A stretch of DNA of 12,807 nt from Candidatus Hydrogenedentota bacterium. Lineage in GTDB: Bacteria; UBA8481; J006. The DNA is taken from the NCBI GenBank assembly GCA_003697085.1, contig RFFU01000114.1, positions 1 to 12,807 on the forward strand. The letters are read 5' to 3'. The position numbers and the translations under genes are program-made. This document shows positions 4,098-10,143 of the stretch, in pieces. Under the pieces are notes generated by a model that had not been told where the DNA came from, did not search any database, and saw only the letters and a list, made by a program, of their open reading frames with translations. Position 1 is the first letter of the stretch. Each line of letters starts with the position of its first letter.

Positions 4098-6386
4098 TCA
4101 GTAGATTACTTGTTTCAGCCCCGGTTCTCCGGGTTCCGGAGGGACGGGTGAGGAAGAGCGGGAGCGGGAAGGAAATTTTCCGGATAGCGGAGGGCCGAGG
4201 AACGGAGGAAAGCCGCCTTTTCCCGCGTTTTTCATAAATTCCGAGAAGGCCGAGAGGTTCTTGTCCAGGCCGCACCACTGCACGAGCGTCGCGGCAAGTC
4301 CGACTCCTCGAGGGTTCGGTTGAACTTCGCCCGTCAGCAAGACGCTGCCTTCCTGCGCTTTTCCCTCCATCGAAATCTTCCAGGTTTCCTTCGGAAGAGA
4401 TCCGAATTTCTTCGAAGGAGTCTTCTCGGCGAGTTTGCCGAGTTCAGCGAAGGGTATGGTCATTGAGTACCGGAGGAAAACACCGTCTTTTGAAGGAGAA
4501 AGCCCGCGGAACTTCTCCGGATTTGCGGCGGTTTCGGCGTTCAACTGAAAAAGCAACCACGGTCCCTCGCGGACCTCGGACCCTTTTTTATTCTGGATAT
4601 TCCCGGCTTCCCCCAGCTCGAGAAATCTTTCCGCCATTTCCTCGCGTTCGAATCGCAGCGCGCCTAGGACGCGTATATCCTTCGGCGTTTTCCCCCCCCA
4701 ATCGAAGGCGAAACCAAGTTCGCGAATATCGCCGACGATCTCACTCATCGGAACCTCGTTCTCGCCCGAGGACAGCAGTTTTTCAGCGTCCGGCGCCGTC
4801 TCGATGCGCCCCGTTTCGCTTTCGTACACGAGGATGGTGTCGGCCCCCTTCTTCGCCACGATACGGAACACGGCGCCGTTTCCTTCGTAATAGAAGGGTT
4901 CGTTCCACGGAGTCCGAGGGTTATCCGGTAAATATTTTGGGATCAATCCGGCGATCTGCCCCACCTCGACCCTCCCTTTCGTCTCGGGGTAATTGCCGGT
5001 GTGGTCTGCGAAGTACATCGCGAGCGAGCCGTTGATCATCCCGATCGTTGCGCGCGCCGCTCCCAAGCGCGCCTCGCCGATCGATGTTTCGATCTTCTCG
5101 AAAACCGTCTCGAACGGCTTTGCCCACCCTTTTGGAAAGGCGAGCGCGGTCCGGAAGGAATAACCGTTGAACGCATCGAAGGGAAACGCACAACTGGCAT
5201 CCGCGAGGTTCTTCAACCAGGAGGGATTCCCGTCCACCGCGATCGATCCAGTGAAACGGTATGTTCCTCCCTCGGTTTGTCCCGTCGAGACGACGGCGCC
5301 GAACTGATTCAGATACTTCTTCCGGAAGTTCGCATAAGCCTCGCCGCCGAAGAGCCCGACGATGGGATCGATGTCATCGAGAATCTTCCGGAAATCGACG
5401 AAACTCTTGTCCTGCACCGTCTTCTCGGCGCCGGCGAAATATTTCCGATAGTCTTCCGTCTTGGCGAAACTGGCGCCGTTGTCATTCTTCCAGAGGGCCA
5501 ACGCTTCCTCAAAACGTTTCTTGCTGTTCGAAAGGATCCGGTAATCCTTGCGCCGCGCCAGGTGCCACGTTCCCCTCGGGCTCTTTTCACCCGCGAAGAC
5601 CTCCCATCCGTTCTTCTCTTCTCCCTTCGCCGAATTCACGTGGAGGGCATCAAGGGCCTGTTTTTCGAGATCGACGGCCTTTTCGGGATCCTGCCACTGC
5701 ACGACGACGACCATTTCCGGCATAAAGCCGCGGGCGGTGTCGATCTTATAAAGAGCCGTGGCGACACGGAATCCGAGCCCTTCGGGATCCGGGACCGTGA
5801 TCTCCTTTCCCATCTTCAGAAAGGGAATCCATTTTCGTGCTCGTTGAATCTCTTCCGGAGTCAAGTTCCGATAGTCGTTTTCGGTATAGACACGGACACC
5901 CGCTGGTATCAGAGAGGCCAACGGAATCTCCCGAGCGAAATGATCGCGGTAATAGCGCCAACCGAAATACCCGGCGGCGGCAAGGCCGGCGATCGCCACT
6001 AGCAGTCCCGCCGCGGCCAGGAACCACCGTCCTTTACGAGGGCGTTTTCCGTCGCCGACCATCCCCCCCGAACCGGCTTTTTCCACGTCGCCCGGCTTTT
6101 TTGCCGGCCCCGCCGCGGCGACGAGATCGGCTGCCCCGCCCGTTCCCTCGGCCGCCCCGCCCTGCTCGACGGGCGGAGCGGGTACCGCCGGAGGAGTCGC
6201 GGAGGGTGTCAGTAACGGCGCCAGTTCATCAACATCTTTTAACGCCGTCCAATCGGAAAACCCCTCGCGCCAGACGTAATGGTCGGGAGTCAGTGCCCCT
6301 TCTCTGAGCAGACGAGCCAAATCTTGACTGCCGAGAGGGCCGACGGTCTCTCCGGAATCGGAATAATAATACCACTGGTCGCTCAC
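4098..6386 (-). CDS. GYF_2-domain membrane protein with DUF3352-like and G-type pseudopilin-like regions
   Basis: A 762-residue protein from GTG 6386-6384, chosen because GGAGG (complement of 6394-6398) lies 7 bases upstream and the product begins right at the GYF_2 domain. The frame stays open 54 more codons upstream, to 6548, but that stretch is low-complexity Gly/Arg. In order: GYF_2/DUF4339 (about 3-60; QWYYYSDSGETVGPLG, then DHYVWREGFSDWTAL); a Pro/Ala/Gly linker (61-118); one membrane helix (about 121-143); then an extracytoplasmic part. Residues 152-420 resemble DUF3352. Residues about 442-518 look like the globular domain of type II secretion G-type pseudopilins (MYFADHTGNYPE, LIPKYLPDNPRTPWNEPFYY, KKGAD). 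Cytoplasmic GYF_2 and periplasmic remainder are inferred. Function is unknown. The stop lies 3 bases from that of the MscS-type gene. Confidence 0.88.
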   Translation of the reverse strand: MSDQWYYYSDSGETVGPLGSQDLARLLREGALTPDHYVWREGFSDWTALKDVDELAPLLTPSATPPAVPAPPVEQGGAAEGTGGAADLVAAAGPAKKPGDVEKAGSGGMVGDGKRPRKGRWFLAAAGLLVAIAGLAAAGYFGWRYYRDHFAREIPLASLIPAGVRVYTENDYRNLTPEEIQRARKWIPFLKMGKEITVPDPEGLGFRVATALYKIDTARGFMPEMVVVVQWQDPEKAVDLEKQALDALHVNSAKGEEKNGWEVFAGEKSPRGTWHLARRKDYRILSNSKKRFEEALALWKNDNGASFAKTEDYRKYFAGAEKTVQDKSFVDFRKILDDIDPIVGLFGGEAYANFRKKYLNQFGAVVSTGQTEGGTYRFTGSIAVDGNPSWLKNLADASCAFPFDAFNGYSFRTALAFPKGWAKPFETVFEKIETSIGEARLGAARATIGMINGSLAMYFADHTGNYPETKGRVEVGQIAGLIPKYLPDNPRTPWNEPFYYEGNGAVFRIVAKKGADTILVYESETGRIETAPDAEKLLSSGENEVPMSEIVGDIRELGFAFDWGGKTPKDIRVLGALRFEREEMAERFLELGEAGNIQNKKGSEVREGPWLLFQLNAETAANPEKFRGLSPSKDGVFLRYSMTIPFAELGKLAEKTPSKKFGSLPKETWKISMEGKAQEGSVLLTGEVQPNPRGVGLAATLVQWCGLDKNLSAFSEFMKNAGKGGFPPFLGPPLSGKFPSRSRSSSPVPPEPGEPGLKQVIY

Positions 6387-6653
6387 GGTATTTCCTCCCT
6401 TCCCCGCGGGCGTCGAATCGGTCCGTCCGGCAGATGAAGACATTGCAGGCTCCGCTCCATCTCCGCTCGGCCCTCCACGCGCACGACCCCTTCCCCCTCC
6501 TTCCGACCGGCCCCCAACCGCATTTCGCGCGGGAACAGTCTTTCGCACGTTCGCGGTTAGAAAGGCGTTCCCTTGGCGAAACGTTCACGCGATGAGGACC
6601 GTGAGTAGGCTACGGAAAAGCGGAAGCAACGGCAAGCAAAATCCGCAGCGAAA

Positions 6654-6679
6654 CCCGGGAACGGAGGCATCTTGCCTCC
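6654..6679. repeat. GGCATCTTGCC palindromic element, copy 1
   Basis: The unit is CCCGGGAAC, 3 bases, then GGCATCTTGCC and TCC. The inner 6663-6679 (GGAGGCATCTTGCCTCC) is a perfect 7-base stem with a 3-base loop. Two more copies lie at 6714-6739 and 6913-6938 with the same internal spacing, so this is a dispersed repeat and not a one-off hairpin. Confidence 0.8.
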
Positions 6680-6687
6680 AGGTGGAG

Positions 6688-6707
6688 CGCAGACTCTCCA
6701 GTCTGCG
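6688..6707. repeat. Perfect inverted repeat between repeat copies 1 and 2
   Basis: CGCAGACT and AGTCTGCG form an 8-base perfect stem around the loop CTCC. It sits between copies 1 and 2 of the GGCATCTTGCC element and has a different sequence, so it is a second repeat type in the same cluster. Confidence 0.7.
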
Positions 6708-6713
6708 GCGATC

Positions 6714-6739
6714 CCTGGGAGAGAAGGCATCTTGCCTGC
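6714..6739. repeat. GGCATCTTGCC palindromic element, copy 2
   Basis: CCTGGGAGA, 3 bases, then GGCATCTTGCC and TGC: the same 26-base unit as copy 1 with a few changes in the left part and an unchanged 11-base core. The AGGCA/TGCCT stem (6725-6737) is intact. Confidence 0.75.
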
Positions 6740-6795
6740 TCCTTGTGAACACCAAAAGCGCAACAGCTACAACTGGGACAGCCGGCAACTTCCTC

Positions 6796-6840
6796 ATTCT
6801 CCCTCACCCCTTTCGGGAGAGGGTTGGGGTGAGGGGTGAA
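6796..6840. repeat. REP-like long imperfect hairpin
   Basis: CCCTCACCCC (6801-6810) and GGGGTGAGGG (6826-6835) form a 10-base perfect stem around a 15-base loop, extended outward by ATTC/GAAT with small bulges. Such C-rich/G-rich hairpins are typical of repetitive extragenic palindromes that occur in many copies between bacterial genes. The match to that class is from memory, not a search. Confidence 0.7.
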
Positions 6841-6873
6841 TTGAGCACCGGCGCGGGATGCCAAGTGGAGGGG

Positions 6874-6901
6874 ATTCCTCGGCGCTTACGCGTCTCGGAA
6901 T
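6874..6901. repeat. ATTCC...GGAAT inverted repeat
   Basis: ATTCC and GGAAT flank an 18-base loop. The element reads GATTCCTCGG at the left and CTCGGAATGACA at the right. Similar GATTCCTC...GGAATGAC elements recur between genes in many environmental genomes, as far as I recall. It ends 11 bases before copy 3 of the GGCATCTTGCC element. Confidence 0.5.
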
Positions 6902-6912
6902 GACAATGGCCC

Positions 6913-7226: not shown

Positions 7227-8582
7227 ATGGCGGAATTTCCGAATGATCCGAGGTTGAAATTATCCGAGGCGGGGTTGCGGGGGGTCGTCGGAGAGACGTT
7301 TCTTCCGCCGCTGGTTTGCGGTATGGCGGCGGCCTTCGCCGCCGGGCGCGGTGAAGGCGCCTTGGCGTTGGGGCGGGACACGCGTCATTCGGGGCCGATG
7401 TTGTTGGATCTTGTGGCATCGAGTTTCCGCTCCGTCGGGCGGGATGTGATCGATCTGGGGATTTGTCCCGTGCCGACGATCGAGTTCTTTGTTCGTTCCG
7501 AAGGGCTCCCGGGCGGCATCGACGTGACGGCGTCTCACAATCCTCCGGAATGGAACGCGCTGAAGTTCATAGGGGAGGGAGGATACTTCCTCGATCGGGA
7601 AGAGGCCCTGGCGATCCGCAGGATTTTCGAGCGTGGGATTCCGTGGCAGGCGTACGATCGCTTGGGAAGACGTATTGCCGACGATACGGCGGCAAGGCGC
7701 CACATCACACGGATTCTCGAAGTGGTGGATGTGGAACTGATTCGCTCGAAGCACTTCCGCGTAGCGATCGATTGTGTCAACGGCTCCGCCTCGTTGATGA
7801 CCCCTCGGTTGCTCGAGGAATTGGGATGTGAGGTCGTGGCCATTCACACGACTCCCGACGCCGGATTCCCACATCCTCCCGAACCGCGACCGGCTCATCT
7901 GGAAGATCTTTCCCGTGCCGTGAGGGAGAGCGGCGCGGTGATCGGTTTCGCGCAGGATCCGGACGCGGACCGGTTGGCGTTGGTCGCCGACGGCGGGGAG
8001 TGTCTCTCCGAGGAGTATACGCTCGTTCTCGCCGCGGAACACGTGCTCAGCCGAAAGCCGGGCCGCCCGGTGGTCGGAAACCTTTCCGGCTCCCGGATGC
8101 TCGAGGATGTCGCGGCCAGGTATAACAGTCCTTGTTATCGAACCCGCATCGGCGAGATCAATGTCTCGAAGAAATTGCGGGAGGTAAACGGGGCGATCGG
8201 AGGCGAGGGGAACGGTGGAGTGATGATTCCGGAGGTCCACGAAGGTCGCGATTCCTTTACGGGAATTGCGTTGATTTTGGAGATGATGGCGGAGAGGGAC
8301 GCGTTGCCTTCGGAACTCGTGAGAGAGATCCCTTCCTACTCGATGTTGAAGTTTCAGAAGGAGATGGAGCCGGAGGCGATCGGAGCGGCGCTGGAGAGGA
8401 TCGAGGAGGAAATGGGCACGGGCGCGGAGAAGGATCATCAGGACGGCGTGAAACTTTCCTGGAGTGACCGTTGGCTTCACGCGCGGGCCTCCAATACGGA
8501 ACCGATCATTCGTGTTATGCTGGAGGCTCCAACCGAAGCCGCGGCACGGGAATTGCTCGAAAGAGCCGTGGCGCTGTTGTGA
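7227..8582 (+). CDS. Phosphohexomutase (phosphomannomutase/phosphoglucomutase/GlmM superfamily)
   Basis: A 451-residue enzyme of the alpha-D-phosphohexomutase superfamily, which moves phosphate between C1 and C6 of a hexose or hexosamine phosphate in the cytoplasm, feeding cell-wall and polysaccharide precursors. All four active-site elements are visible. The phosphoserine is Ser103 in TASHNPPEWNALK. The metal loop is DPDADR at 244-249. The sugar-binding loop is GGEGNGG at 325-331. The phosphate-binding loop is RASNTEP at 420-426. The N-terminal GLRGVVG and GRDTRHSG are also typical. ATG 7227 is chosen because a GAGGAAG ribosome site precedes it and the protein starts at the family's normal place; the frame extends to 6858, but through repeats. 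Substrate (glucose, mannose or glucosamine) cannot be settled by eye; GEGNGG resembles that of archaeal-type GlmM/PMM members. Confidence 0.95.
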   Translation: MAEFPNDPRLKLSEAGLRGVVGETFLPPLVCGMAAAFAAGRGEGALALGRDTRHSGPMLLDLVASSFRSVGRDVIDLGICPVPTIEFFVRSEGLPGGIDVTASHNPPEWNALKFIGEGGYFLDREEALAIRRIFERGIPWQAYDRLGRRIADDTAARRHITRILEVVDVELIRSKHFRVAIDCVNGSASLMTPRLLEELGCEVVAIHTTPDAGFPHPPEPRPAHLEDLSRAVRESGAVIGFAQDPDADRLALVADGGECLSEEYTLVLAAEHVLSRKPGRPVVGNLSGSRMLEDVAARYNSPCYRTRIGEINVSKKLREVNGAIGGEGNGGVMIPEVHEGRDSFTGIALILEMMAERDALPSELVREIPSYSMLKFQKEMEPEAIGAALERIEEEMGTGAEKDHQDGVKLSWSDRWLHARASNTEPIIRVMLEAPTEAAARELLERAVALL

Positions 8583-8685
8583 TCCCTTGCGGCGAAACAG
8601 GAACGCCGGTGGGGCGGAAAAGGCCGAGCCATTCGAAAGGAGAGTCTTGGTTGAGATTGCAGGGGTCGAAAAAGAGGGGAGAGCG

Positions 8686-10143
8686 GTGAGCGCGTCTCTC
8701 TTTCGCTTCGCCGATATCCGAAACCACGTCGTCGGGCTTCCACTGTTTCGTCGATGGTGTGCGGTGTCGGCGATTGCGGTCTCTCTGATCCTTTTCTTCG
8801 GCGGGACGGTGCACGCGGATACCGATCCGCTTGCGCGTGCGCGGCAGTACGTCGACTATCAGAAATACGACAAGGCCATCCCGCTTCTCGAGTCCTATTA
8901 CGGCCACAACCCGGAATCGACGGAGGCGTACTATCTTCTGTTGCACGCCTTGCGGATGAACGCGGTGGTGGCGTATGACGAGAAGGACTACGGGACCGCG
9001 ATCGTCTCGCTTGTGCGAGCCGTTCAGCTGGCCCCCACGGATACCTTCGTCAAGAGGGACCTGGCGACGGTCTATACGGCTTACGGGTACCATCTTTATT
9101 CGCGGGCGGATACTCCAGGCGCGGAGGAGGCGTTCCGGAAGGCGTTGGAGATCATCCCGACTTCACGGGCGGCGCGGCGGGGAATGGCGCGGATCGAGGA
9201 GGGAAAGGGGGATGCGGAGCGGGAGGCGGGGAGGCCGTTGATCGCCATTCATCATTATCGTTCGGCGTTGGAATGGGATTCCACTTCGATCGCGGCGCAT
9301 CTTGCCTTGGGGCAGATCTATTACCGCCGCGAGGAATTCGCGTTGGCGCGGCAGCATCTCAAGAAGGCGCGCGAATTGTCGGCGAAAACCATAAAGGGTT
9401 TGGACGATCTTCTGGCGCGCGTGGACCGGGAAGAAGAGGAGACGAGGTTGTACGAGACGATCGAGGCTGATGGATTTCGGGTGCGTTTCCGCGGCGCGGC
9501 GCGGTATGAACTTTTCAACCAGATCCTTCCGATTCTTCAGGAGGCGCGGCAACGGGCGTCGTTTCTCTTCGAGCGAACGCCCCGCAAACCGTTGACCGTG
9601 ATTCTTTACACGGGCGAGGCCTTTTCCCGCGCGGTCGCCGCTCCCGACTGGGCCACGGGACTTTATGATGGAAAGGTTCGCCTACGGGAATCCGAGGTGA
9701 ATCGGCCGGTGACCTATCTGACCCGCGTCATTCGCCACGAGGTTGCCCACGCGGTCTTGAATCAGGTTTGCGCGGGCGATGTTCCGGCGTGGATCCACGA
9801 GGGGATCGCCAAGTATCTCGAAATCGATCAATGGGACTCCCTGCAGGACGCCTCCTATCTCGTGACGGCGATCAAGAGGAAGGAATGGATCGATCTTTGG
9901 AGATTGGAAAAACCGTTCACGAGTTTGCCGGGGGACAGCGATGTTCGGTTGGCCTATGACGAGTCGGCGGCGGCGATCCGTTTTCTTGCTACAAATTATG
10001 GCCAGCGGGCCATCGCCGATCTCGTGACGCTTCTTTCAGCAGGGCGAAGTCCGGCCGAAGCAATCGACAATATCACGTTTCTCGACAGAAATGTATTTCA
10101 GTCGCGCGTTCGAGACTGGGTTTTGTGGGAATATGATCGGTGA
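8686..10143 (+). CDS. Secreted TPR protein with gluzincin-type (peptidase MA-like) metalloprotease domain
   Basis: A 485-residue protein from GTG 8686, preceded by GAGGGG at 6 bases; a TTG at 8647 is a possible alternative. The longest frame begins at 8464 inside the phosphohexomutase gene and is unlikely. A signal or anchor segment lies at about 24-41 (WCAVSAIAVSLILFFGG, then VHAD). TPR-like helical repeats run over about 46-245, for example KYDKAIPLLESYYGHNPEST and EEAFRKALEIIP. The C-terminal half carries the zinc motif HEVAH (351-355) and a downstream HEGIAKYLE, whose Glu372 is the likely third ligand, as in gluzincins such as peptidase_MA_2. It is probably a periplasmic or membrane-anchored zinc protease with a protein-binding repeat arm; the target is unknown. 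It overlaps the next gene by 11 bases. Confidence 0.88.
   Translation: MSASLFRFADIRNHVVGLPLFRRWCAVSAIAVSLILFFGGTVHADTDPLARARQYVDYQKYDKAIPLLESYYGHNPESTEAYYLLLHALRMNAVVAYDEKDYGTAIVSLVRAVQLAPTDTFVKRDLATVYTAYGYHLYSRADTPGAEEAFRKALEIIPTSRAARRGMARIEEGKGDAEREAGRPLIAIHHYRSALEWDSTSIAAHLALGQIYYRREEFALARQHLKKARELSAKTIKGLDDLLARVDREEEETRLYETIEADGFRVRFRGAARYELFNQILPILQEARQRASFLFERTPRKPLTVILYTGEAFSRAVAAPDWATGLYDGKVRLRESEVNRPVTYLTRVIRHEVAHAVLNQVCAGDVPAWIHEGIAKYLEIDQWDSLQDASYLVTAIKRKEWIDLWRLEKPFTSLPGDSDVRLAYDESAAAIRFLATNYGQRAIADLVTLLSAGRSPAEAIDNITFLDRNVFQSRVRDWVLWEYDR

Follow-up and report, generated by a model that had tools for sequence, protein, structure and literature searches.

Pilin heads are usually regarded as subunits of filaments, and the occurrence of such a head inside a protein that is anchored by a single transmembrane helix raises the question of where it originates from and what it would do there. 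We find this combination in a protein of 762 residues from a Candidatus Hydrogenedentota bacterium, whose gene resides on a contig (C7, 12.8 kb) that in its entirety forms the window of our analysis, within a genome of 3.2 Mb distributed over 145 contigs. A sequence-only reading had described the protein as a fusion of a GYF_2 domain, a DUF3352-like region and a domain of the pilin/pseudopilin class, and this architecture is confirmed by a Pfam match for GYF_2 (E 1e-16) and by the 40% identity of the head to prepilins. For both the anatomy of the fusion protein and the origin of its pilin head, we hold the conclusions reached here to be nearly certain.

Gene and domain organization

The gene is encoded on the minus strand (4098..6386) as an uninterrupted frame with coding GC3, which starts with a GTG at 6386 and ends with a stop codon at 4098-4100. 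On the same strand, the sequence GGAGG (6394..6398), located 8–12 nucleotides upstream of the start codon, likely serves as ribosome-binding site. The GC3 ranges from 0.62 to 0.78 across the full frame, the pilin segment included. The gene is flanked by a convergent MscS-like channel and a divergent phosphoglucosamine mutase, and no pilus or secretion genes adjoin it within the 12.8-kb contig. Translations of the region between the fusion gene and the mutase gene (6592-6903) resemble dispersed repeats and contain stretches like TPHPNPLPKG and QTGESAL, of which the second also appears in frames near L023:10336-10956. Elsewhere in the window, a gene at 8464-10143 on the plus strand joins TPR repeats to a peptidase MA-type domain with a HEVAH motif, with a possible N-terminal membrane segment ahead.

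The GYF_2 domain (PF14237) comprises residues 6-55 (6222..6371, minus strand) and passes the Pfam cut-off by a wide interval (60.9 versus 25.8 bits); it also matches the GYF domain of AgmX/GltJ (7z3c) in a phmmer search with an E-value of 2.4e-9. A Pro/Ala-rich linker connects it to the transmembrane helix at residues 121-139 (5970..6026, minus strand), which constitutes the sole peak of the protein in a hydropathy scan. Since this helix is preceded by the basic stretch KRPRKGR, the positive-inside rule suggests an orientation with the N-terminus inside, in which GYF_2 would be cytoplasmic and the pilin head, as part of a presumed periplasmic portion of about 620 residues, would face the periplasm. 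GYF_2 is a protein-binding domain and, because it is found about ten times in unrelated proteins of the genome, it does not indicate any specific partner. In this genome (G000), the expanded domain occurs in fusion with LURP-one-like, OB-fold, PilZ/CIA30 and other domains. Two paralogues (C118, L021:1075-2694, plus strand; C117, L022:577-2172, minus strand) have an N-terminal region that is PilZ or PilZ-like, together with GYF_2, a single transmembrane helix and a periplasmic CIA30-like part, with PilZ scoring above cut-off in L022 and CIA30 in L021, and are possibly bitopic receptors linked to c-di-GMP.

The first recognizable segment of the periplasmic part, at residues ~204-387 (5226..5777, minus strand), resembles the N-terminal half of DUF3352. 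Its Pfam match is weak and sub-threshold (residues 214-318, E 0.081, 11.9 bits versus a cut-off of 26.8), whereas a profile-profile comparison with hhalign, for which we aligned 12 DUF3352 proteins taken from other genomes, relates residues 204-387 to the N-terminal half of the family with a probability of 89%, a P-value of 2e-6 and a score of 50, compared to scores of 19–25 for shuffled sequences. The earlier assignment to DUF3352 consequently stands for about 180 residues but not for the C-terminal half of the family, as residues 546-700 remain without match in the comparison with the same 12-protein alignment. We also considered that the pilin head was inserted between two halves of a DUF3352 domain, and have dropped this arrangement, as the C-terminal part was still unmatched after excision of the head in silico. 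For the entire C-terminal region (residues 546-762; 4101..4751, minus strand), whose last ~35 residues are rich in Pro and Ser, no relatives were detected in sequence searches and a match to DUF3352 is absent. Apart from sub-threshold matches to T2SSG and DUF3352, whole-protein searches of Pfam, NCBIfam, PHROGs and PDB left the periplasmic part without a match, and a structure model of this part is unusable (pLDDT 33).

Origin of the pilin head

The head of a type IV pilin, devoid of the N-terminal hydrophobic helix, is located at residues ~430-534 (4785..5099, minus strand), where it is supported by sequence identity, profile matches, a phylogenetic tree and a fold search. With the whole protein as query, it is 40% and 35% identical (E 3e-15 and 9e-15) to two prepilins that the genome itself encodes in tandem on contig C45 (17922-18905); these carry a prepilin methylation motif (GFTLIELLVVVAIIGILASIALPK) followed by a GspG/PilA-like head. 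A comparison restricted to the heads, to which the hydrophobic helix cannot contribute, yields an E-value of 6e-22 with 38% identity over 106 columns and an alignment score of 173, compared to a maximum of 55 among 2000 shuffled sequences. The homologous region begins in α1-C and stops in the last strand of the C45-type pilins, and a profile search of 290 genomes recovers it at 4785-5081. The Pfam model T2SSG matches residues 435-505 below its cut-off (E 0.0064, 17.0 versus 21 bits), with an alignment that stops at model position 81 of 108, and the score remains below cut-off at 20.3 bits if the segment is taken alone. Since the two true prepilins of the genome themselves only reach 17–18 bits with this model, the Pfam score alone undersells the head. 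The match to TIGR01710 is similarly below cut-off (12.7 versus 88.85 bits). Judged by these comparisons, the resemblance of the segment to pilins is homology and not chance.

In a tree of 17 pilin and pseudopilin heads, the head of the fusion protein joins the PilA-like pilins of its own lineage with a support of 97/97, within a wider PilA-like clade (95/94) and apart from the GspG of the genome, to which it aligns with an E-value of only 6e-5. Tree and pairwise scores together show that the head descends from the family of PilA-like prepilins of the lineage and is closer to these than to the GspG of type II secretion systems. The proposed likeness to type II secretion pseudopilins was thus appropriate at the level of the pilin/pseudopilin class and misplaced within it, and the GAD sequence, which had been taken as part of a type II pseudopilin pattern, aligns with the last strands of PilA-type pilins instead of the calcium loop of GspG.

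We have also modelled the isolated head with AlphaFold, using a pilin from the sister genome as the only second row of the alignment. The resulting low-confidence model (pLDDT 54) contains a helix (16-34) followed by an antiparallel sheet (strands 73-77, 82-88, 92-97 and 102-105). Among 350,542 PDB chains searched with Foldseek, the best two are the Thermus type IV pilins 4bhr (E 0.026, probability 1.00) and 5g2f (E 0.17, probability 0.93). The same chains superimpose with VIA Z-scores of 7.3–7.5 over 77–80 residues, followed by PilV, PilE and PilX with values of 4.5–5.3. Because unrelated sucrose synthases also reach a Z-score of 5.3 against the model, the match to the pilin fold is supportive but not decisive, and the claim is carried by the sequence evidence. 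Sucrose synthase and monellin entries ranking below the pilins in the fold search were disregarded as partial matches.

Despite its head, the protein itself is, on its sequence features, not a pilin, as it lacks the cleavage site, the hydrophobic N-terminal helix, the cysteines and the GspG calcium loop. A Pfam match to the prepilin motif N_methyl, which is present in the C45 prepilins, is absent from the fusion protein, and its sole transmembrane helix precedes the head by about 300 residues, such that the hydrophobic α1-N is missing, which bears out the earlier notion that the segment is not placed behind a prepilin helix. Equally, the head contains neither the C-terminal cysteines of its pilin relatives nor the calcium loop of GspG.

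Pilin heads in non-pilin proteins

An orthologue of the whole protein was not found in our searches, which included the 86% complete sister genome as one other genome of the same phylum. Scans of genome and viral contigs did not detect a fused relative, and only identified one pilin in Candidatus Hydrogenedentes CG07. Similarly, the profile search of 290 genomes located other pilin-type heads in frames of 126–206 residues and no other fused frame, and the search of the phylum containing the next closest pilins did not add any. The combination of GYF_2, transmembrane helix, DUF3352-like region and pilin head was not found described in the literature searched, whose incomplete coverage makes this weak evidence of novelty.

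The presence of a pilin-type head in a protein that is not a pilin is in itself not unique. The T2SSG family is found in 115 of 241 genomes, mostly in short frames, and several of the long frames inspected bear the head without a prepilin signal. These include FecR-T2SSG proteins in three genomes (G025, G172 and G125; L043, L044 and L046) and a DUF4388-TM-T2SSG protein (G064; L051), all above Pfam cut-offs, a stalk-T2SSG protein (G144) and a DUF3352-T2SSG protein from two sister species (G098 C66 and G290; L049/L066), whose sequences are 93% identical and score above cut-off for both domains. In the same genome as the fusion protein, a protein of 466 residues (C67, L003:1438-2838, minus strand) contains a T2SSG head at its C-terminus (E 4e-10) and one hydrophobic segment near its N-terminus. 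With these cases, the reuse of pilin/GspG heads in non-pilin proteins is recurrent. Descriptions of the FecR, DUF4388 and DUF3352 fusions were not found in the literature searched.

A comparison with its relatives defines the position of the fusion protein. With the PilA-like prepilins of C45 and of Candidatus Hydrogenedentes CG07 42_17 (PEWQ01000010.1), it shares a homologous head of 31–43% identity, the motifs INGSLAMYF and LIPKYL..P..PW and a supported clade; the prepilins, however, stand alone as proteins of 142–199 residues with prepilin motif, hydrophobic helix and C-terminal cysteines, none of which accompany the head in its context of 762 residues. GspG, the major pseudopilin of type II secretion, which is related by the weak T2SSG and TIGR01710 matches, differs in its prepilin signal, its calcium loop (GADG..GGEG..AD-like) and its α1-N helix. 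The DUF3352-T2SSG protein likewise brings together DUF3352 and a head of pilin/GspG type within a single secreted or anchored polypeptide, but it carries a GspG-type head with a calcium-loop-like GGEGFNAD at its extreme C-terminus, a fuller DUF3352 and no GYF_2, and by sequence the two appear to be independent fusions. The FecR and DUF4388 proteins, although sharing a head without prepilin signal, contain other partner domains and place the head at the C-terminus instead of internally. Finally, the order of GYF_2, linker, single transmembrane helix and long periplasmic part is common to GltJ (AgmX) of the gliding machinery of Myxococcus xanthus, an example of a bitopic GYF_2-TM protein. GltJ is the closest NCBIfam match (E 1.6e-12), with an alignment that is confined to residues 12-129, a score of 47.4 bits far below the equivalog cut-off of 450, and periplasmic parts that do not match. 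Among the proteins compared, the fusion protein is set apart by a head that is internal, of PilA-like instead of GspG-like stock, and joined to GYF_2.

Possible roles of the head

Type IV filament systems are present in the genome, although none adjoins the fusion gene. We find 11 family matches to PilB/GspE/PilT-type ATPases, four secretins and type II secretion genes in the form of a gspG cluster on contig C70. The tandem pilin genes of C45 are surrounded by a pyruvate phosphate dikinase-like frame, a PDDEXK-GGDEF protein, an O-antigen ligase, a histidine kinase and a sigma-54 response regulator, and this setting resembles a type IV pilus locus, with its two regulators identified to class but not specifically as PilS and PilR. 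The adjoining PDDEXK-GGDEF gene (L023:7173-8759, plus strand) fuses a PDDEXK_1 nuclease domain to GGDEF.

The head very probably serves binding rather than filament building. In the explanation that we favour, the protein would be a bitopic scaffold or regulator of the inner membrane, with the head as non-polymerising interaction module that, on the periplasmic side, touches pilins or the machinery that assembles the pilus, and with the cytoplasmic GYF_2 recruiting a proline-rich partner, which would link both sides of the membrane. That a type IV filament system is the partner is possible, if short of probable. Such a docking partner could exist, since the genome contains the corresponding machinery, and the strong homology confined to the head, the supported donor family and the location of GYF_2 on the basic side of the helix speak for the scaffold as a whole; the missing linkage to pilus or secretion genes, the lack of an orthologue, the weak fold model and the sub-threshold Pfam scores speak against it. 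In an unlikely but more far-reaching variant of the docking scaffold, a type IV pilin gene captured in this lineage would have given rise to a pilin mimic that is permanently anchored in the membrane and unable to polymerise, with a periplasmic head that monitors or regulates the pilin pool or the pilus base and a cytoplasmic GYF_2 adaptor that signals across the membrane. If true, this mimic would act on type IV filaments as a regulator of a new, trans-envelope kind.

Alternatively, the head might be a stable periplasmic α/β module, which acts as spacer or ligand-binding unit in a DUF3352-type envelope protein without any link to type IV filaments, a serious contender to which we would assign not quite an even chance. 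None of the heads joined to FecR, DUF4388-TM, DUF3352 or other stalks implies a filament, and the missing pilus neighbours and the absence of the cysteines and calcium loop found in pilin/GspG relatives are equally consistent with such generic reuse. Conversely, the head is specifically akin to the pilins of its lineage, with 38–43% identity and the common runs INGSLAMYFAD and LIPKYLPDNPRTPW, a closeness that a neutral spacer would not need. An assembly factor of type II secretion, whose head mimics GspG and docks on the secretion system, as the first reading had proposed among its options, could be accommodated by the cluster on C70 and the match to the T2SSG profile; with tree and pairwise scores favouring PilA-like pilins and the calcium loop absent, we consider it improbable and, on tree and scores, have rejected it as main interpretation. 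Hardly credible is a chance resemblance or a mis-joined contig, for which a T2SSG score below the gathering threshold and a gene known from one genome could be invoked, as the shuffle control is exceeded threefold and coding GC3 persists throughout an unbroken frame. An identity of only ~40% to the C45 pilins also implies that misassembly did not paste the head into the gene.

Since the head closely matches two pilins of its own genome but is devoid of the parts that form filaments, a building block of the pilus has apparently been put to new use as part of a scaffold or regulator. A pilin head whose donor family is contained in the same genome is found here in a protein unable to polymerise, and the recurrence of such heads with FecR, DUF4388 and DUF3352 suggests that the pilin fold also serves as periplasmic module, a use that has been little described. 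For annotation pipelines, this serves as warning that a T2SSG match does not always denote a pseudopilin. If the head of the fusion protein binds pilins, it would offer a natural pilin mimic for studies of assembly control.
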